DNA of 37,849 bases, from the IMG/VR virus record IMGVR_UViG_3300035187_003172, positions 1 through 37,849 of that record; one strand, given 5' to 3'. Below are positions 10,529 through 31,240 of this stretch, in pieces. This DNA is from a virus. Every line of letters starts with the position of its first letter. The first letter of the stretch is position 1. Under the pieces are notes generated by a model that searched no databases, was not told the DNA's origin, and was given only the letters and a program-made list of their open reading frames with translations. The position numbers and the translations under genes were made by a program.

Positions 10529-10843
10529 ATGCAATTCAATTGTCCAGAAGAAATCAAGCCGCGAGTCCGTGCCGCCGGAAAGGCCGCGCTCGCAACGCAA
10601 GGCAAGCGGAAAGGCTTTCTGCTTTCCCGCATGCCGGTTTCGAATTCCGATGCCGGTCTATTCTGGCGCGCTGCGGTAATGACGTGGAATCCTTATAAGG
10701 CCAGCGTCGCCGGTCTGCTTTTCCTGCGCCCGGAGGAGAAGGAATTCCTGATCTATTGCGAGCGCTATTGCGAGGCCTTGAAGGTACAAGGAGTCTGCCT
10801 GGATTACGATAGGCACAGACTCTCGAGCTTGGGAGTCTGGTAG
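10529..10843 (+). CDS. Hypothetical protein
   Basis: 104 residues from ATG 10529, with GAAAGGA eight bases upstream. It begins MQFNCPEEIKPRVRAAGKAA and contains GFLLSRMPVSNSDAGLFWRA and WNPYKASVAGLLFL, then FLIYCERYCEALKVQGVCLD. It looks like a small alpha/beta protein with three Cys in the second half. I do not recognise the family. The next small ORF starts 2 bases after its stop. Confidence 0.65.
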   Translation: MQFNCPEEIKPRVRAAGKAALATQGKRKGFLLSRMPVSNSDAGLFWRAAVMTWNPYKASVAGLLFLRPEEKEFLIYCERYCEALKVQGVCLDYDRHRLSSLGVW

Positions 10844-10844
10844 C

Positions 10845-10925
10845 ATGATAATCCTACTCGCCAAACTTTTCCGCCTATCCTGCATGCTTTTCTTTCTGGC
10901 GATTGTGATTCACGTTTGCACCTAG
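10845..10925 (+). CDS. 26-residue hydrophobic membrane peptide
   Basis: ATG 10845 begins just after the preceding TAG (10841-10843), with GGGAG about 12 bases upstream. MIILLAKLFRLSCMLFFLAI followed by VIHVCT: essentially one transmembrane helix interrupted by a basic residue pair region. The close spacing suggests coupled translation. Function unknown; a second tiny membrane peptide in this operon after the one at 9669. Confidence 0.45.
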   Translation: MIILLAKLFRLSCMLFFLAIVIHVCT

Positions 10926-10957
10926 TCGCCAGGATCAATCAACGAAAGGAATCTGAT

Positions 10958-11158
10958 ATGAACAAATCCTATAAAGGTAGACGCACTGAAAACCTTGCGC
11001 GCCTAGACACCGAATTGCGGGGATACGCAAAACAGATAGGGCACCATGGTGTGCGCAATTTCATCGAGTCCATCCGGCAGCGTTGTCACTGTCAGATAAC
11101 AGAAGACTATGCCCGAGAATTGCTAGGGTTTGCAGGTTACACAAACCCAAAACCCTAA
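10958..11158 (+). CDS. Hypothetical small basic protein
   Basis: 66 residues from ATG 10958, with AACGAAAGGAATC upstream. MNKSYKGRRTENLARLDTEL starts a helical, basic protein; GHHGVRNFIESIRQRCHCQI and TEDYARELLGFAGY follow. Possibly a small nucleic-acid-binding protein judged by charge, but no recognisable domain. It is the last gene before the structured 260-base intergenic region. Confidence 0.55.
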   Translation: MNKSYKGRRTENLARLDTELRGYAKQIGHHGVRNFIESIRQRCHCQITEDYARELLGFAGYTNPKP

Positions 11159-11179
11159 ACGACGCCAAGCCCGACAAAC

Positions 11180-11213
11180 AAGCCGGCCGCCTGTACCATC
11201 GGGCGGCCAGCTT
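11180..11213 (+). other. 12-bp stem-loop after the 66-residue gene
   Basis: AAGC-c-GGCCGCC (11180-11191) pairs with GGCGGCC-a-GCTT (11202-11213), with a single C/A mismatch and a 10-base loop. No T-run follows on the plus strand, so it is a weak terminator at best. It could be a processing or attenuation signal at the head of the structured region. Confidence 0.5.
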
Positions 11214-11249
11214 GACAGTCACACAACCGCATGCAACCATCGAGTCGGT

Positions 11250-11420
11250 CTTTAGCGAGACTTGATTGCAAGCGGTTTGCCGATCCCCGAAAGTCGGCAA
11301 TCCTTATAGTCCGGATTGCGCGCGTGTATGTCCAAGGCGAAAGCCCAAAGACGCGCGCAGCTGTCTTGCACAGCTCGCTAAAGTCCGGACCCTTAACCTT
11401 TAGCGAAAGATGCAAGACCA
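11250..11420 (+). ncRNA. Candidate structured leader RNA with competing helices
   Basis: Plus-strand reading shows several nested inverted repeats. TTGCCGA/TCGGCAA (11277-11283 with 11294-11300, 10-base loop). TGCGCGCGT/ACGCGCGCA (11317-11325 with 11351-11359) enclosing GGC-GAAA-GCC (11336-11345), a GNRA-type tetraloop. GTCTTGCA/TGCAAGAC (11363-11370 with 11411-11418) continuing through an internal loop into CGCTAAAG/CTTTAGCG (11376-11383 with 11398-11405). The last stem ends 2 bases before ATG 11421 and buries its upstream region. A second CTTTAGCG...TGCAAG copy at 11250-11272 can pair with the same strand, so two alternative folds exist. This suggests a switch or attenuator for the next gene; protein-binding operator repeats are the alternative. 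Confidence 0.5.
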
Positions 11421-11780
11421 ATGACAAACCATCCTGAAATCCGGATCCCGCTTGCTGATCTGGCGCGCGCCTTGGTGCTCGATCCCCAAAAGCTGCAAAT
11501 GCGTGTCCTTGCAAAGTACAAAGCGCTAAAAGCATTGGGCGCCTTGCCGCACACGAAAGGCGCCACTAAGCAGGACAGACTGTTTTTGCTGAACGAAGTG
11601 CAAGCGTTGTACCTGGCGGAAGGGAAGCACCGAAAGCGTATTGTCCAGGCGTTCGCAAAGAAGAGACTGGCGCAAGCCCAATGGTTGAGAGTTTCGCCTT
11701 ACGAGGGTGATATGTGGGAGGTCATAGGCGTTGTACCAATGGGCGCCGCTATGGACTTTCTGAAACGCATTTATCCGTAA
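11421..11780 (+). CDS. Hypothetical protein downstream of structured leader
   Basis: 119 residues from ATG 11421, mostly helical and basic: IPLADLARALVLDPQKLQMR, VLAKYKALKALGALPH, FLLNEVQALYLAEGKHRKRI, then WLRVSPYEGDMWEV and a C-terminal AMDFLKRIYP. The basic helical centre could contact nucleic acid. No family recognised. Its ribosome site (GCGAAAGATG) lies in the internal loop of the preceding stem, so expression may depend on RNA folding. A strong terminator follows 25 bases after the stop. Confidence 0.6.
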   Translation: MTNHPEIRIPLADLARALVLDPQKLQMRVLAKYKALKALGALPHTKGATKQDRLFLLNEVQALYLAEGKHRKRIVQAFAKKRLAQAQWLRVSPYEGDMWEVIGVVPMGAAMDFLKRIYP

Positions 11781-11805
11781 CACGCCCAAACGCATCGCAA
11801 GTGGA

Positions 11806-11835
11806 GGCCGGCACCACAAGCCGGCCTTTTCTTTT
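11806..11835 (+). terminator. Rho-independent terminator of the left plus operon
   Basis: GGCCGGC (11806-11812) pairs with GCCGGCC (11820-11826), loop ACCACAA, followed by TTTTCTTTT. A classic terminator placed just before the convergent minus-strand operon ends at 11843. There is no T-run on the other strand, so it acts one way. Confidence 0.9.
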
Positions 11836-11842
11836 GCGCCCA

Positions 11843-11995
11843 CTAACCCCTGCGCCTGCGCGCCAGGTAAAGCTCGATCGCATATCCTATCATCGCGCTA
11901 AGTCCGAACGCCGTCACCGCCGAAATGATTTCGAACTCGCCGCGCGCCCATTGCATGGCAACGATCCCCAGCCCGATTGCCGCTCCGTACCGCAT
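11843..11995 (-). CDS. Small two-helix membrane protein
   Basis: 50 residues from ATG 11995, chosen because GGGGAGAAGG lies three bases upstream; the frame is open to 12028. MRYGAAIGLGIVAMQWARGE and IISAVTAFGLSAMIGYAIEL are two hydrophobic segments joined by a short charged turn, ending RRRRG. It resembles small phage holin-like or membrane-modifying proteins, but it ends the primase operon rather than the lysis cassette, so a membrane-associated early role is equally possible. Confidence 0.5.
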   Translation of the reverse strand: MRYGAAIGLGIVAMQWARGEFEIISAVTAFGLSAMIGYAIELYLARRRRG

Positions 11996-12012
11996 GACCT
12001 TCTCCCCAAAAT

Positions 12013-12059
12013 TTATTGGCGAGTCCATTAAGTCTGAAAATTATTGGCGAGTCCATTAA
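12013..12059. repeat. 19-base direct repeat, two copies
   Basis: TTATTGGCGAGTCCATTAA occurs at 12013-12031 and again at 12041-12059, 28 bases apart. Both lie in the gap between the 245-residue gene and the small membrane gene. In the transcript sense each reads TTAATGGACTCGCCAATAA and offers an ATG, so the second copy may be a small tandem duplication or a protein-binding pair. Confidence 0.85.
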
Positions 12060-12060
12060 A

Positions 12061-12798
12061 TCAGTCGATCGTGCGGTCACTGCGCCGCCTTGGGGCTTGC
12101 AGGAGTGCGTGTTCTCTCAACCTCGGTGGCGCCCACAGATCGTCCGCTTCATCGTAGCCAGCGGGCAACCTGGCCCACGGGGATGCCCTTTGCCAAGCCA
12201 CCAGCGGGTAGGCATGCGCCAACCAGCGCGGCAACAACTCGGAATTGTCAAGATCGTCGGCCTTCTTCCACTGCACGACGATCTGTGCCTTCTGGAAGCG
12301 CCACAGTCGATTGCGCCGGGCGACTTCCTGCCACTCCGCGGCTTCGGCAGTGAGCCACGCCACCGATCCGGTCCCGTGTCCTATCACGCGCCTGTCGCCC
12401 GTGCGAACCAGTCCGATCGTCCACATGTTCTGAAGTTCGAACCACATATCCGCAAGGTCGGACTTGGTCGCCCACTCGTGATACCGCTTGCACAACGTCG
12501 TGTACTGCAGTGCCTCGCCGATCTCCACGTCCTGCAGAATGATCTGCATCCATGGAACGCCGCGAGCATGCTGCTTGCGGGCCAGACTGGCCTCAAGCAC
12601 CTTTGAATATTTCCGGACCTTATGTGCGTAGCGCTCGACCACTTCGCGATGCTGCTCGCGCCGACGCTGCGCCTCGATCACCCGCTCCAGCATGCTCGCC
12701 TTTGGTTGCCTGACCTGGTTGATCCTGCGCGGCAGGCGGGTGAGGTTTTCAAGCGCCTCGCGTGCCAGGCGCGCTGCTTCGTTTTCTTCGTCTGCCAT
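12061..12798 (-). CDS. Hypothetical protein in the primase operon
   Basis: 245 residues from ATG 12798. The first about 90 residues are highly charged, helical and coiled-coil-like (LARKQHARGVPWMQIILQDV begins the next part). The centre is Trp-rich (MWFELQNMWTIGLVRTG, VAWLTAEAAEWQEV, WRFQKAQIVVQWKK) and the C-terminus is basic and Arg/Pro-rich. No recognisable domain. It follows the PrimPol-helicase gene and the repeat cluster, so a replication-accessory or origin-binding role is a reasonable guess but only that. GAGG lies about nine bases before the start. Confidence 0.6.
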   Translation of the reverse strand: MADEENEAARLAREALENLTRLPRRINQVRQPKASMLERVIEAQRRREQHREVVERYAHKVRKYSKVLEASLARKQHARGVPWMQIILQDVEIGEALQYTTLCKRYHEWATKSDLADMWFELQNMWTIGLVRTGDRRVIGHGTGSVAWLTAEAAEWQEVARRNRLWRFQKAQIVVQWKKADDLDNSELLPRWLAHAYPLVAWQRASPWARLPAGYDEADDLWAPPRLREHALLQAPRRRSDRTID

Positions 12799-13144: not shown

Positions 13145-15235
13145 TTAATCCAGAAAATCTGCGCCTTTTTTCCGGATAAAAATTTCACGCTTTACAAGGC
13201 CCTCCGCACTATCGACGCCCTTCATTTCGAACAATTCCAGCGCCCTTTCGCCGGTCGCGATTTCGTTCAACCAACGACGCCACGACGCTTCGGAGCGGTA
13301 TCCAGACGCCAACAAGTGTGCCTCGACGGACGGCCATCCAACCCACAAAAGCCCCTCCCCCTCCATCGCCTTGACCACGGCGGCTATCTGCGACTCGTGC
13401 GATTTGGTCTTCTCGGCTTTCTGCAATTTCGACATTTCGATCGGATCCAGCACACCCACGACATCGCCCCCGATCTCGTCCTGCAGCGCGACGCTGGTGC
13501 GCCGGAACCAGATTGGCTCGCCGCCGACGAGCCCGAGATTGTTCTTGGCCTGGTCGAGCCGCAGGTACAGGTGCCGCTGGTCTTCGGAGACGCCCCATGC
13601 CGCGGCGTCCTTCTCGGCCATGCCGTACAACGTGAGGATCGCCCTGGTGACGCCTTGGAGCGACGAGGCGCCGCGCATGGCGTGCTGCGAGCCGGCGAAG
13701 CCCTGCGACGAAGCCGAATCTGGCTTCCGGTCGTGGTGAAGCATGAGCACGGCGACATCCGCCTCGACCGCGATCTGGCGCAACACGCCGGCCACGGCTG
13801 CCATTTCGACGTTCGAGTTTTCATCGCATGAGTGGAATTCGACGAGCGGATCGAGCACCAGCATGTCGGCGCGCATGTCCCGCAGCAGCGTTATCAGTTT
13901 GTCGGCGTGCTTGGTGGCCCGGACCACGCCGGACTTGTCCTTGCCGGCGATGATGAGCTTTCTGCTGACGCCGGAAGCGAAACGGATATGGTCGGTTAGC
14001 TTAGCCTGATCGATCCCGAAGTGGATGGCCGTGGCCAGCATGCGCCTGCGCAGCTCGTCGGCCTCGTCCTCGTTGTTCCAGTATGCGACGGTTTGCGGCC
14101 TGCGAGTAGCCGGCTTGAGCCCGGCTATGTTGCGCCCGATGGCTGCGCTCAATGCGAGTTGCACGGTGAACTGTGTCTTGCCGACGCCCGACGGCGCGTT
14201 GAGCGCGGCCAGTGTCTTCTTGGCGATCACCCCGTCGAATACGAACACGCGACGCGGAAGCGATCTCGGATCTATTGGGGAGAAGTTGGTGAACGCCGGG
14301 AATGGATCGTCCGGATCAATGTCGTGCGCAAGGTGATCGGCGGTCAGCGGTATGTCGACATGTTCGAACTCGAACGCCGCGCTGAGGTGCCCGAGTGGTG
14401 ATTCGGCGTAGCGGTAGGCGTTCCGCACTTTCACTTCGAGGTCGTCGGGTTGCCACGGTGGGCTGGCTTTGGTGTCGTTCCAGTATTCGAGAAGCAGGTC
14501 GAGGGCCAGGTCTTCCGGCACGCCGAAGTCCTTCATGCGCAGCGCGACAGAGTATGTGGTGGCGTCACCGCCAGCGCCTTCGATGGCTGTCGGTGCCTTG
14601 CGGAGTAGATAGTCGGTGGCGAGCTTGACAGCGTAGTCGATCGCGTCGTGGTCGGGTGCGGCCGAAAGGGGGACATCTTCTTTATTGGGCGCGCCCGGCT
14701 TCGACCACAGCCACTTCGGCGCGTCGGCCAGCGGTGCGTCGTTGATTACCTTGTACTCGACCACCTTGCCGTCGACGAGCAGGCTCGACCCCGGCGCCAG
14801 CACGTACCCGCCCTTGGATCTCACGTCGACGCCAGGGGCGATCTTCTCCGCCGAATTGCCGATCGGGCTGGAAGCCTTCAGGTACACGTGAAGCCCACCT
14901 GTCGGCGTTGTGACGGTCAGCGTGTCTTGCGGCAGTCCGTCGGCCAGCATCTGCTGGTAGGATTCAAGTCCTCTTTTTCCTCCCTTCACATCGTAGTCGA
15001 GAACGACTTCGTGCTCCGAGACGGCGATTCCGACATTGTACGGCTGCGGTTCGCCGAGTGCGTCGGTCCACAACTGTCGAATCACTTTCGGATCAATAGT
15101 GGCACGATTCGGCCAGTCGGATATCAATGGCACCTTGCCGAACGGCTCGACCGGGAACACGGGGAAGCCCTTGGCTGCGGCGGACAAGGCATGGTCCAGC
15201 ATGCTCAGCGCACGCGGGCGAACTGTGTCAAGCAC
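13145..15235 (-). CDS. Bifunctional primase-polymerase / RepA-type helicase
   Basis: 696 residues. The N-terminal prim-pol domain (about 1-200) has GFPVFPVEPFGKVPLISDW, the metal-binding pair LDYDVKGG (Asp about 80 and 82) and GGLHVYLK (His about 116). The C-terminal AAA (RepA-like) domain has Walker A APSGVGKT (about 347-354), Walker B MLVLDP (Asp about 462) and a LMLHHDRK sensor. Such proteins make primers and unwind DNA for phage replication. The start is GTG 15235 with AGAGAGGA about 11 bases upstream; ATG 15202 is an alternative. It opens a three-gene minus operon and is divergent from the RuvC-led plus operon. Length and domain order are normal for phage versions. Confidence 0.9.
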   Translation of the reverse strand: MLDTVRPRALSMLDHALSAAAKGFPVFPVEPFGKVPLISDWPNRATIDPKVIRQLWTDALGEPQPYNVGIAVSEHEVVLDYDVKGGKRGLESYQQMLADGLPQDTLTVTTPTGGLHVYLKASSPIGNSAEKIAPGVDVRSKGGYVLAPGSSLLVDGKVVEYKVINDAPLADAPKWLWSKPGAPNKEDVPLSAAPDHDAIDYAVKLATDYLLRKAPTAIEGAGGDATTYSVALRMKDFGVPEDLALDLLLEYWNDTKASPPWQPDDLEVKVRNAYRYAESPLGHLSAAFEFEHVDIPLTADHLAHDIDPDDPFPAFTNFSPIDPRSLPRRVFVFDGVIAKKTLAALNAPSGVGKTQFTVQLALSAAIGRNIAGLKPATRRPQTVAYWNNEDEADELRRRMLATAIHFGIDQAKLTDHIRFASGVSRKLIIAGKDKSGVVRATKHADKLITLLRDMRADMLVLDPLVEFHSCDENSNVEMAAVAGVLRQIAVEADVAVLMLHHDRKPDSASSQGFAGSQHAMRGASSLQGVTRAILTLYGMAEKDAAAWGVSEDQRHLYLRLDQAKNNLGLVGGEPIWFRRTSVALQDEIGGDVVGVLDPIEMSKLQKAEKTKSHESQIAAVVKAMEGEGLLWVGWPSVEAHLLASGYRSEASWRRWLNEIATGERALELFEMKGVDSAEGLVKREIFIRKKGADFLD

Positions 15236-24026: not shown

Positions 24027-24193
24027 TGGCCGGCATCCACTGCGTCAACTGCGGCTCGACGAAGACCAGCGTGGCCAACACGCGCCGGATCCCCGACATG
24101 GTGAAGCGTCGCCGGCTCTGCGAGGACTGCGGCTGCAAGTTCACGACGTATGAGAAGGTCGGCAAGGTGACGTTGCCGAAGGGCGACCAGTGA
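24026..24193 (+). CDS. NrdR-like zinc-ribbon protein
   Basis: 55 residues from ATG 24026, overlapping the methyltransferase stop (TGATG). Four Cys in HCVNCGSTKTS and LCEDCGCKF, with RRRLCEDCGCKFTTYEKV matching the zinc-ribbon of NrdR (RRREC..CGKRFTTYE). Full-length NrdR adds an ATP-cone and represses ribonucleotide reductase genes; only the zinc ribbon is present. It could bind DNA at NrdR boxes or act as an Ogr-like activator. Overlaps the polymerase GTG (GTGA). Confidence 0.75.
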   Translation: MAGIHCVNCGSTKTSVANTRRIPDMVKRRRLCEDCGCKFTTYEKVGKVTLPKGDQ

Positions 24194-27135
24194 GCTCACT
24201 TCATATTGACGTGGAATCGAGAAGCCCGGTCAACCTGAAAAAGACCGGCGCCTACGTCTATTTCGACCACCCGGACACCGACCTGTGGTGCGCTGCTTAC
24301 GCCTTCGACGACGAGCCGGTGCAGCTTTGGACACCCGGTGAGCCATGTCCGCCAGACCTTGAAGAGCACATCGCCTCCGGTGGCCGGTTGGTTGCCCACA
24401 ATGCCAGTTTCGAACGGCTCGCTTTCTCCAAGATACTCGGCCCGCGCTACGGCTGGCCGGTGCCGAAACTGCGCCAGTGGTACTGCACGATGGCGATGGC
24501 GCTGGCACAGGCGCTTCCGGCCGGTCTGGAAGACGCCTGCGCGGTCACGCAGACCGCCGTCCAGAAGGACGAAAAAGGCAGTCGCGTAATGAAGCAGATG
24601 GCGAAGCCGCGGCGCCCACGCAAGGACGAGCCCGGCGACAAGCTGCTCTGGTGGGACGACGCCGCCCGGCTCAACACGCTGTACGAGTATTGCAAGACCG
24701 ACGTTGAGGCTGAGCGGCTTCTGGAAAAGAAGCTCCGCCCGCTGTCGGATTTCGAGCAGCACATTTGGTGGCTCGACCAGGAGATCAATGATCGCGGCGT
24801 GGCAGTGGACGTGGAACTCTGCAACGCGGCGCTGAAGATCGTCGACGAGCAGCGCGAACGGCTCGACCGCGAAATGCGCGACATCACGAACGGCGAGATC
24901 GCCGGCACGGGCGCGGTCAACCAGATCAAGGCTTACCTGCGGGACTTCGAAAACCTCGACGTAGGCGAGAGCCTGGCGAAAGACACCGTGGTCGAACTGT
25001 TGATCCGGGCCGACCTGAGCCCGACTGCGCGCCGGATCCTCGAGCTTCGCCAGGAAGGCAGCAAGACATCCGTCGCCAAGATCGACGCACTGTTGAACGG
25101 CACGCAGGCCGACGGTCGCAGCCGTGGGTTGCTGCAGTACCACGCCGCGTCTACCGGCCGGTGGGGCGGGCGACGCTTCCAGCCGCAGAACATCAAGCGG
25201 CCGCAGATCGACGACGTGAACACGGCGATCGACATCGTGCGGACGGGGAACCTCGACCTGGTCGAATCTCTCTACGGCAACGCGCTCGGCGTCGTGGGCG
25301 ATTGCCTGCGAGGCACGGTGATCGCGCCTGAAGGCCGCAAGCTGCTGGCAGCCGATTATTCGAACATCGAAGGCCGGGTGCTCGCATGGCTGGCCGGCGA
25401 GCAGTGGAAGATCGACGCCTTCTCTGCCTACGACCGCAAGGAAGGGCCGGATCTTTACAAGCTCGCATACGCCAAGGCGTTCGGCATGTCGCCTGACGAT
25501 GTGGACAAGAACCAGCGGCAGGTGGGCAAGGTTATGGAGCTGAGCATGGGGTACCAGTCCGGCCCCGGAGCGTTTCAGGTCATGGCGACCGGCTACGGTG
25601 TTCGCATCGGCGAGCAATGGGACTACCTGAAATCATCCGCCTCAGCGAGCGTCCTAGACCGGGTGCAGCAGGCGTGGGAGAACCGCGGCAAGACGAGCGG
25701 CATGGACGGCCGGACATGGTGCGCCGCCGAGTTGTTGAAGACGCTGTGGCGCGACGCGCACCCCGCCACAGTCCGCTTCTGGCGCGAAATGGAAGACGCC
25801 GCCATCGCCACGGTGAAGACGGGCGAAGAGCACGAAGTCGGCAAGATCCGCTTCTACAAGAAAGGCAGCTTTCTGTTCATGGAACTGCCGAGCGGCCGGC
25901 CGCTGGCGTATGCCTTCCCGAAGATCGACAAGCTGGCGACGCCGTGGCGCAACGAAGACGACGAGATCGTCTACAAGGACACGCTCTACTTCAAGGGCAC
26001 CGACAGTGTCACGCGCCAATGGACCACTCAGACGACCTACGGTGGCAAGCTCTGCGTGTCGGCAGACACGGAAGTCCTCACCGATTCCGGCTGGCGCAAA
26101 ATCGTGGACATCACAGTCGACCAGCAGGTGTGGGACGGCGAAGCGTGGGTTAGCCACGCAGGCGTAGCGCACCAAGGCTTCAAAAAGACAATCTCCGTGG
26201 ACGGCGTTCGGATGACGCCCGACCACTTGGTCCTTACCGAGAAAGGATGGGTCTGTGCATCATCGTGCGAGGGACTACACCGGCCAGACGCTTGGTTACC
26301 TGACGGCACTGCGCTACGCGGGCTCGGATGGCCGGCGATCACTTTGGACGTTCCGGTGCGTGTGCGGAAACGAAGTTACGAAAGACGCGACAGATATAGC
26401 GAAGCACGCCAAGAAGGGCGGCATGCCGAGCTGCGGCTGTTTTCGTCACTCGTCTGTGCTGCGAACCACACACGGCATGTCGAAGCATCCGGCATTCGCG
26501 GTGTGGCGCTCAATGGTGGACCGCTGCACTTTGCCGACGCACCACGCCTGGCACAACTACGGCGGGCGTGGCATCACGGTGTGTGCCGAGTGGCGGAAAT
26601 CATTTCAGACGTTTTGGGCAGACATGGGCTCGGCCTACGCGCCGGGTTTGTCGATCGAAAGGATCGACGTGAACGGCAACTACGAGCCGACGAACTGCTG
26701 CTGGATACCGCGATACGAGCAGGCGAAGAACCGGCGCGACACGCTGCCAGTGGACCTGAAGTCGCTTTCGATGGTGACGGGGATCCCGCGCAGCACACTG
26801 CGGTACCGATGGCAACGGAAGCAGTCTTTGATCTCGTCAACGCCGGACCCCGATCGCGTTTCATGGTTCGGGGAGCCGAAGGATTTCTGATCGTACATAA
26901 TTGCGAGAACGCATGCCAGGCCGTCGCCCGCGACGTGATGGCGCAAGCTCTCATTGGGCTCGACGCATGGGGCTACGAAACCGTTCTGACGGTGCATGAC
27001 GAAATCGTTGCGGAGAGCACCGAGCGCGTCGGGACCGCCGAGCATTTCAGCGAGTTGATGACAGTGCTTCCGGACTGGGCGGATGGTCTGCCCTTGGTTG
27101 CGGAAGGCTTTGAGGACAGGAGATACCGGAAATGA
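24190..27135 (+). CDS. Family A DNA polymerase interrupted by an intein
   Basis: 981 codons from GTG 24190; removal of the 283-residue intein leaves 698, normal for phage PolA. Exonuclease motifs: LHIDVES (Asp7, Glu9), AHNASFE (71-75), YEYCKTD (Asp171), so 3'-5' proofreading looks intact. Polymerase motif A AADYSNIEGR (Asp389), motif B RQVGKVMELSMGY (443-455), motif C VHDEIV (936-940, after the intein). The intein follows GGKL and precedes CENACQAVARD, in the conserved segment between motifs B and C. It is the main replicative polymerase candidate. ATGA overlap with the next gene. Confidence 0.95.
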   Translation: MSSLHIDVESRSPVNLKKTGAYVYFDHPDTDLWCAAYAFDDEPVQLWTPGEPCPPDLEEHIASGGRLVAHNASFERLAFSKILGPRYGWPVPKLRQWYCTMAMALAQALPAGLEDACAVTQTAVQKDEKGSRVMKQMAKPRRPRKDEPGDKLLWWDDAARLNTLYEYCKTDVEAERLLEKKLRPLSDFEQHIWWLDQEINDRGVAVDVELCNAALKIVDEQRERLDREMRDITNGEIAGTGAVNQIKAYLRDFENLDVGESLAKDTVVELLIRADLSPTARRILELRQEGSKTSVAKIDALLNGTQADGRSRGLLQYHAASTGRWGGRRFQPQNIKRPQIDDVNTAIDIVRTGNLDLVESLYGNALGVVGDCLRGTVIAPEGRKLLAADYSNIEGRVLAWLAGEQWKIDAFSAYDRKEGPDLYKLAYAKAFGMSPDDVDKNQRQVGKVMELSMGYQSGPGAFQVMATGYGVRIGEQWDYLKSSASASVLDRVQQAWENRGKTSGMDGRTWCAAELLKTLWRDAHPATVRFWREMEDAAIATVKTGEEHEVGKIRFYKKGSFLFMELPSGRPLAYAFPKIDKLATPWRNEDDEIVYKDTLYFKGTDSVTRQWTTQTTYGGKLCVSADTEVLTDSGWRKIVDITVDQQVWDGEAWVSHAGVAHQGFKKTISVDGVRMTPDHLVLTEKGWVCASSCEGLHRPDAWLPDGTALRGLGWPAITLDVPVRVRKRSYERRDRYSEARQEGRHAELRLFSSLVCAANHTRHVEASGIRGVALNGGPLHFADAPRLAQLRRAWHHGVCRVAEIISDVLGRHGLGLRAGFVDRKDRRERQLRADELLLDTAIRAGEEPARHAASGPEVAFDGDGDPAQHTAVPMATEAVFDLVNAGPRSRFMVRGAEGFLIVHNCENACQAVARDVMAQALIGLDAWGYETVLTVHDEIVAESTERVGTAEHFSELMTVLPDWADGLPLVAEGFEDRRYRK
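26053..26901 (+). other. Intein within the DNA polymerase (residues 622-904)
   Basis: 283 codons, first residue Cys 622, last residues His-Asn 903-904, then Cys 905 of the extein. N-terminal splicing block: CVSADTEVLTDSGWRKI, then VRMTPDHLVLTEKGW with the block B Thr-x-x-His. C-terminal block: VFDLVNAGPRSRFMV and LIVHN before Cys. The middle (about residues 689-873) has no intein-endonuclease (LAGLIDADG) motif and reads like out-of-frame sequence. It coincides with the nested endonuclease gene. ATG at 26809 (MATEAVFDLVNAG) would be a natural start of a split C-intein, so both cis splicing and a split form are possible. Confidence 0.9.
26255..26890 (+). CDS. HNH homing endonuclease nested in the intein, +1 frame
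   Basis: 211 residues from GTG 26255, with GAGAAAGGA ending seven bases upstream, the same ribosome site used across this genome. N-terminal zinc-finger-like FRCVCGNEVTKDATD and MPSCGC; nuclease core HGMSKHPAFAVWRSMVDRC, YGGRGITVCAEW, FWADMGSAYAPGLSIERID, NGNYEPTNCCWIPRYEQAKN. This is a widely seen phage HNH pattern (W..M..RC, YGGRGI.VC..W, DMG..P...S.eRiD, Y.p.NC.W). A C-terminal HTH (MVTGIPRSTLRYRWQRK) probably recognises DNA. TGA 26888-26890 is 11 bases before the intein ends. Confidence 0.85.
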   Translation: MHHRARDYTGQTLGYLTALRYAGSDGRRSLWTFRCVCGNEVTKDATDIAKHAKKGGMPSCGCFRHSSVLRTTHGMSKHPAFAVWRSMVDRCTLPTHHAWHNYGGRGITVCAEWRKSFQTFWADMGSAYAPGLSIERIDVNGNYEPTNCCWIPRYEQAKNRRDTLPVDLKSLSMVTGIPRSTLRYRWQRKQSLISSTPDPDRVSWFGEPKDF

Positions 27136-30706: not shown

Positions 30707-30849
30707 TCTATTTCCCTTCTGTCGTACCGAGCGTGACCGCCCGGAGTGCGGATTACGTCAAGTTGCCATTTTTGCGACATTCGCGCCAGCGTTTTGACGG
30801 ACACGCACAAGGTGCGCGCCGCCTTGCCGGCAGAGAGCCTAACTGACAC
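30508..30849 (-). CDS. MerR/Xis-type HTH protein overlapping integrase
   Basis: 113 codons from GTG 30849. The first about 48 residues (VRLSAGKAARTLCVSVKTLA and RTPGGHARYDRREIE) fit the HTH_17/MerR-type fold of excisionases and small regulators. After residue 49 the frame lies over the integrase gene (30706 downward) and reads as Arg/Ser-rich out-of-frame sequence. The overlap is 199 bases. It may be a real short protein with a long tail, or a relic whose frame once ran into int, or a frameshift fusion. The start overlaps the repressor end by 11 bases. Confidence 0.6.
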   Translation of the reverse strand: MSVRLSAGKAARTLCVSVKTLARMSQKWQLDVIRTPGGHARYDRREIECLASARKRRGSTAGATAGSTSTGTTPPSGERASSLWIRKIRLKRRLASASSCSKAPACTKPEARD

Positions 30850-31240
30850 TTTTCAGAATCTCCATGACCTTCAAAGCCACGTCGAACGGCACCGCCTGGT
30901 TGACGGTCAGCCACACCGTGCCATCCGAAAGTGATTCGAACTTCCGGCACGGCGCCCGTGGCGGCTCGGTGAACGCGACTGGCACGAAGTCGACCGGAAC
31001 GAGGTCACGTGGCTCGCAACCGAGCACCGTGGCGATGACCGAAAGCCGTTTTGGCGTCGGAAACGCAATGCCGCGAATGTAGCTGCTGATCGTATCACGT
31101 TCGAATCGAACGTCTGCGGGCGCGATATTTTTGCATGCCGCAGCCAGTTCAGTCTGGCTCAGCCCCTTCTTCATCATCATCGTCTGGAGGCGGCGCGAGA
31201 ATTCTCGCCTAGCCGCGATCTTGTCTTCTTTGGTACGCAT
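30839..31240 (-). CDS. XRE-family repressor (CI-like)
   Basis: 133 residues from ATG 31240. HTH_XRE: FSRRLQTMMMKKGLSQTELA, then DTISSYIRGIAFPTPKRLSV and IATVLGCEPRDLVP. The C-terminal half (VWLTVNQAVPFDVALKVMEI) is short, with no LexA-type cleavage site seen. It likely represses lytic promoters and itself. First gene of the int operon, so repressor, HTH and integrase are co-transcribed. Confidence 0.85.
   Translation of the reverse strand: MRTKEDKIAARREFSRRLQTMMMKKGLSQTELAAACKNIAPADVRFERDTISSYIRGIAFPTPKRLSVIATVLGCEPRDLVPVDFVPVAFTEPPRAPCRKFESLSDGTVWLTVNQAVPFDVALKVMEILKSVS

Follow-up and report, generated by a model that had tools for sequence, protein, structure and literature searches.

A probable C4-type antisense RNA module in the leader of a temperate phage gene

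The region upstream of gene 11421 in the window, by which we mean the whole analysed stretch of 37,849 bases from an IMG/VR virus, is best read as an antisense RNA module of the C4/CI type that is carried by a temperate phage and would silence gene 11421, with a probability of about 0.82. This reading is based on the structure of the RNA, its covariation, its complementarity to flanking sites, the layout of these elements and the genes with which they are associated. The RNA family is a previously uncatalogued branch of the antisense immunity RNAs known from P1 and P4, with which such phages exclude their relatives and maintain dormancy. The window phage encodes an integrase, an excisionase-like protein and an XRE repressor-like gene (30839-31240) and is therefore considered temperate.

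Structure of the leader upstream of gene 11421

The original prediction described five inverted repeats in a row, and all five were located as hairpins in the leader (Table 1). RNA folding of positions 11155-11430 gave -114 kcal/mol, compared with -76.2 ± 5.0 kcal/mol for shuffled sequences (z -7.55). The GNRA tetraloop predicted in a 9-bp stem was likewise found, with GGC-GAAA-GCC at 11336-11345 lying within a GUC/GAC plus 6-bp stem. Alternative pairings had also been proposed for the strand 11363-11383, and both arms proved to be complementary: downstream, 17 of the 21 positions matched 11398-11418 (equalled by 0 of 200,000 shuffles), and upstream, 11374-11387 formed a 14-nt pairing with 11246-11259 (93%). 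Among folds of the full leader, the cis hairpin 11363-11418 was lowest in energy (-80.3 kcal/mol), and the conserved core reached -71.6 kcal/mol. The core would be transcribed before the downstream cis hairpin, and either fold could win.

With regard to a leader promoter, the TTGACA hexamer lies at -97/-101 from the core in the window and its close relative L020, and at -96/-99 in L089/L086. No good -10 element was found for this hexamer, and a strict sigma-70 promoter scan of the leader region returned nothing beyond chance. The hairpin 11179-11214 (plus strand; approximately 13-15 pairs) has the same loop in L020, is devoid of a T run and overlaps TTGACA; a terminator or a protein site may be considered as candidate roles. 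DNA similarity to positions 10800-12100 was not found in named phages.

Table 1. Features of the leader, the RNA core and the adjacent gene in the window
Feature	Position	Strand	Basis or remark
Five hairpins	11179-11214, 11225-11277, 11274-11303, 11317-11359, 11363-11418		
TTGACA, possible -35 element of leader promoter	11212-11217	+	Same distance in relative L020
a1, first linker target, CTTTAGCGAG, in loop of hairpin 11225-11277	11250-11259	+	Complementary to 11374-11383; co-changed in L020
b1, first P3-loop target, TTGCAAG	11266-11272	+	Direct reading; complementary to CTTGCA of P3 loop
C4-like RNA core	11309-11390	+	Covariance model R1 and pair counts
P1 closing stem	11309-11316/11383-11390	+	Part of RNA core
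P2 with UGUAUGUCC...AAAGAC motif and GAAA loop	11318-11358	+	Part of RNA core
P3 hairpin	11359-11375	+	Part of RNA core
Antisense strand	11363-11383	+	Loop part GTCTTGCA (11363-11370), linker part CTCGCTAAAG (11374-11383)
Linker	11376-11381	+	Part of RNA core
a2, second linker target, CTTTAGCGA	11398-11406	+	Complementarity
b2, second loop target, TGCAAGAC	11411-11418	+	Two bases 5' of start codon, ribosome-binding-site position
Putative controlled gene, 119 aa	11421-11780	+	42-43% identical to L020 counterpart

A three-way junction with covarying stems

The core of the leader RNA has the shape of a three-way junction, composed of the closing stem P1, P2 with its conserved motif, P3 and a linker. 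A covariance model (R1) was built from L031, L033 and L035 only, leaving out the window. In searches with R1, positions 11309-11390 of the window scored 75.6 bits (E 1.2e-17), all 14 members were recovered, and no matches were obtained to phage P1, P4 and unrelated loci in the searched set. Covariation, the analysis that had been suggested together with the original prediction, was strongly positive: standard pairs occupied 98.9% of the pair cells in the 14 sequences, both partners had changed in 18 of the 26 pairs and the covariation score was 0.765, against 0.06-0.16 with slid structures, the pair counts being inflated by the fitting of this alignment to the structure. The P1 and P2 stems were visible also in a plain MAFFT alignment.

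The conserved stretch GTGTATGTCCAAG...AAAGAC was taken as a search pattern, which added two phages (L024 and L028) and ten bacterial loci, each from a genome whose title places it in the Alphaproteobacteria. The pattern matches L023, L025-L027, L034, L036, L038-L044, L047-L049 and L051 were set aside, as no stems were seen in them by inspection; L034, L036, L038, L039 and L041 were also tried with R1 and gave no match.

Complementarity of the antisense letters with flanking target words

The sites are named after those of P1, a being the target of the linker and b that of the P3 loop. The antisense strand of the window scored best with its own downstream flank when compared with the flanks of 58 other members. 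On the upstream side, complementarity of loop plus linker in 59 members averaged 15.6 with the own flank versus 10.9 ± 1.5 with those of others, and the own flank beat all 58 others in 40 of the 59. Upstream pairing is nearly universal among the members, whereas downstream pairing is not. A downstream match before the start codon was clearly own-specific in the window, L045, L081, L083, L086 and L108, and ranked near the top in L020, L024, L028, L031, L085 and L089; duplex energies agreed with this word ranking for most of them, L083 and L085 not being distinctive. As for the phylum set, the downstream duplex was own-specific or nearly so in L110, L111, L114, L115, L117 and L118 and not own-specific in L109, L112, L113 and L116, and visual reading of L109 and L112-L114 showed word matches before the start codon. 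Many members carry no downstream a2 b2; in its place, ahead of unrelated genes, there is often a hairpin, which in some cases has a T run. Because of these members, the a1 b1 pairing may be purely intramolecular in role.

One close relative, L020, was found by a search with the primase-polymerase (13145-15235). Its flanking DNA is 88-95% identical to that of the window and the nearest flanking proteins 83-97%; in the leader, 185 bases align at 76% identity, with loops and internal loops constant and stems changed. The first target, the antisense and the second target all differ in letters between the window (CTTTAGCGAG...TTGCAAG / GTCTTGCA...CTCGCTAAAG / CTTTAGCGA...TGCAAGAC) and L020 (CCCTTAGAACG...GAAGCGA / ATCGCTTC...TTTTCTAACG / CTCTTAGAAACG...GAAGCGA), and complementarity is kept, the b1 of L020 (CGAAGCGA) being matched to its own loop. 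The predicted duplex of the window RNA on its own downstream target amounted to -24.0 kcal/mol, compared with -8.6 kcal/mol on the target of L020, and the flanks of 57 other members were all poorer. Judged from the letters, such a swap with the pairing kept is what two immunity types would show. A 26-residue hydrophobic ORF at 10847-10927 (plus strand; MIILLAKLFRLSCMLFFLAIVIHVCT) is conserved in L020, where the RNA module follows it directly and gene 10958-11158 has no counterpart.

Resemblance to C4 and CI RNAs

C4 RNA controls an antirepressor and the heteroimmunity of phages P1 and P7, acting in trans (PMC12197685). C4 of P1/P7 and CI of satellite P4 (RF01695; targets c4-a1b1, RF03163) share their topology with the window RNA, the closing stem, the tetraloop hairpin, the hairpin with antisense loop and the antisense linker being common to P1 C4, P4 CI and the window. 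As in C4, the closing stem of the window RNA surrounds two hairpins, the second of which has the antisense loop and is followed by the antisense linker, and words a and b occur twice, once upstream and once where the next gene starts. The annotated order in immI of P1 (a1, b1, C4, a2, b2, icd) is that of the window. The order of the two target words is the same in C4/CI and in the window family, with a length of 87 against 83 positions, and both are associated with antirepressor control, in the window family via relatives; the ant antirepressor gene of phage P22 is likewise controlled by an antisense RNA, sar (PMC12197685). The window family differs in its P2, in which a bulge plus internal-loop motif (UGUAUGUCCAAG...YAAAGAC) is conserved whereas the hairpin of C4 is simple, and in that, unlike C4, many members are without a downstream target.

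RF01695 matched both P1 C4 and P4 CI. It gave no match in the window, whether at the gathering score, at E ≤ 5 over the region or at E ≤ 10 over the genome, 18 relatives were also unmatched at gathering, and RF01695 and the new models did not match in either direction. More broadly, no Rfam family reached its gathering score on the leader and none was plausible at E ≤ 5, a weak snoU25 match to the leader region being rejected as chance. The riboswitch models of Rfam 15 did not match the leader at either threshold, in agreement with the original statement that no known riboswitch class fits.

Gene 11421 and the genes following the RNA in relatives

The gene at 11421 has a weak Shine-Dalgarno sequence, and Pfam, PHROG and NCBIfam gave no match to its product. 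Its only relative in viral and bacterial contigs was that of L020, with none in 240 Alphaproteobacteria genomes or in named phages, and among DUF7227 relatives neither the leader nor the neighbouring genes were matched. A profile comparison by hhalign gave a weak match (E 0.0021, probability 14%) to the Ant/Rha-like protein of L083; the AF2 model was poor (pLDDT 51) and was not carried on to a fold search. In relatives, the next gene after the target sites encodes AntA in L024 (E 2.6e-28), Rha in L028 (1e-25) and ORF6N in L086 (1.3e-18), with a weak Rha/Ant match in L083. In the phylum set, AntA was found in L109 and L116 and P22_AR_N in L113, the product of the latter sharing 54% identity with P22 Ant over 121 residues. 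None of the next genes of ten members without a clear downstream target was an antirepressor (0 of 10). By analogy with the relatives, from which the antirepressor association comes, gene 11421 would encode an early protein that promotes lytic growth, for example an antirepressor.

Proposed mechanism and alternative explanations

From the precedent of C4 and CI, we infer transcription of the module, release or processing of the RNA, repression in trans, immunity specificity and the role of gene 11421. A single transcript would contain the first target a1 b1, the three-way-junction RNA of approximately 82 nt and, covering the start of 11421, the second target a2 b2. Once freed from the leader, the RNA would bind the b sites with its P3 loop and the a sites with its linker; pairing at a2 b2 would hide the start region of 11421 and stop its translation, and pairing at a1 b1 on the nascent leader would probably lead to early termination. 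A resident prophage could in this manner keep 11421 silent both in itself and in an incoming phage that shares its letters, and a relative with other letters, such as L020, would escape, the letters thus constituting an immunity specificity code. If this code holds, the immunity groups of temperate phages could be read from their letters.

The original prediction had interpreted the leader as a switch. Its structured leader and conserved, mutually exclusive pairings before 11421 were borne out, but a stand-alone switch of riboswitch type, outside every known class, was not, since layout, junction and the antirepressors of relatives match C4/CI. A purely cis-acting switch or attenuator, in which the antisense strand pairs either upstream (start open) or downstream (start closed) on the cue of a ligand, a protein or transcription speed, and no separate RNA is made, is improbable but deserves consideration: both cis pairings are possible, the closed form has the lowest energy, and upstream pairing is the near-universal one. 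However, the C4/CI precedent with exactly the same layout acts in trans (PMC12197685), and the P2 motif is conserved, yet no riboswitch class matches. In addition, close relatives differ in letters and yet stay complementary; this pattern is predicted by an immunity code, whereas an aptamer switch has no need of it. Alongside a C4-type action, a cis contribution of hairpin 11363-11418 is possible on the folding model, because the full leader reaches its lowest energy with this hairpin formed.

That the repeats are DNA operators or a replication or recombination site, and not RNA, is very unlikely. The inverted repeats do fold on the opposite strand too (z -6.1), but the conserved stems use G-U pairs, the unpaired bases of P2 are the most conserved part, with the small loop of P2 kept in position, and the module keeps one orientation with respect to the gene that follows. 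Chance folding of GC-rich intergenic DNA, which has nothing but the GC content in its favour, is refuted, to near certainty, by the folding z score, the independent model match, the covariation and the count of 0 in 397 genomes of two other phyla.

Distribution of the family and connection with sRNA-Xcc1

Using model R2 at E ≤ 1e-5, the RNA was detected in 48 of 385 Alphaproteobacteria genomes, with up to nine copies each, and in 44 of 398 genomes across Pseudomonadota; the phyla of a Listeria and an Actinomycetota genome gave 0 of 199 and 0 of 198, respectively. This widespread, uncatalogued branch, found in approximately one eighth of the sampled Alphaproteobacteria species, joins a small number of phage immunity RNAs. 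Among the chromosomal copies, many have no downstream target; each of these has its own matched letters, and they precede prepilin-like, lipoprotein or other genes. Tentatively, they might represent a distinct regulatory system descended from phage immunity RNAs, with orthogonal antisense codes, one per locus, that would control surface genes of the host or of mobile elements, perhaps via RNA-triggered transcription termination. L030, L050, L071 and L076 represent several copies within one MAG, each before a prepilin-like gene (MNKTNKNYKRSQKGRSMVEMLGVL...) and with differing antisense letters. A weak R2 match (29 bits) was located beside attP and before gene p053 in Rhizobium phage 16-3 (L122:30202-30296, minus strand), a well-studied temperate phage that could serve as a genetic test system. 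A type II hammerhead ribozyme (66 bits) lies at L112:2889-2953 (minus strand), and a family member is situated approximately 1.3 kb away.

A similar three-way junction, including an AUACAA stretch in P2, is present in sRNA-Xcc1 (Rfam RF02221), a Xanthomonas sRNA whose targets are predicted only (PMC2996969, PMC12444791). The P2 motif is AUACAA...GGGGAAU in sRNA-Xcc1 versus GUAUGUCC...AAAGAC in the window family. RF02221 did not match the window even at E ≤ 5, and its scores for some R2 members, 34-36 bits, lie below the cut-off of 53. In Bordetella phage IFTN1 (L119:511-597), an RF02221 RNA precedes an antirepressor gene with the a1 b1 / a2 b2 layout; it scores 68 bits with RF02221 and 31 bits with R2 at the same place, and its upstream and downstream complementarity is own-specific, in a small comparison. 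No mention of sRNA-Xcc1 together with antirepressors was found in the literature searched, an absence that is no proof of novelty. The case of IFTN1 suggests antirepressor-type control as a hypothesis for sRNA-Xcc1, a link that makes its function directly testable.

Additional features in the window

The DNA polymerase ORF at 24190-27135 (plus strand) contains an intein-like stretch (CVSADTEVLTDSGW ... VHNC), and an HNH-like ORF (26255-26890, plus strand) lies inside it in another reading frame. Finally, a direct repeat (TTATTGGCGAGTCCATTAA) is present in two copies at 12010-12062, at the start of the small ORF 11843-12028 (minus strand).
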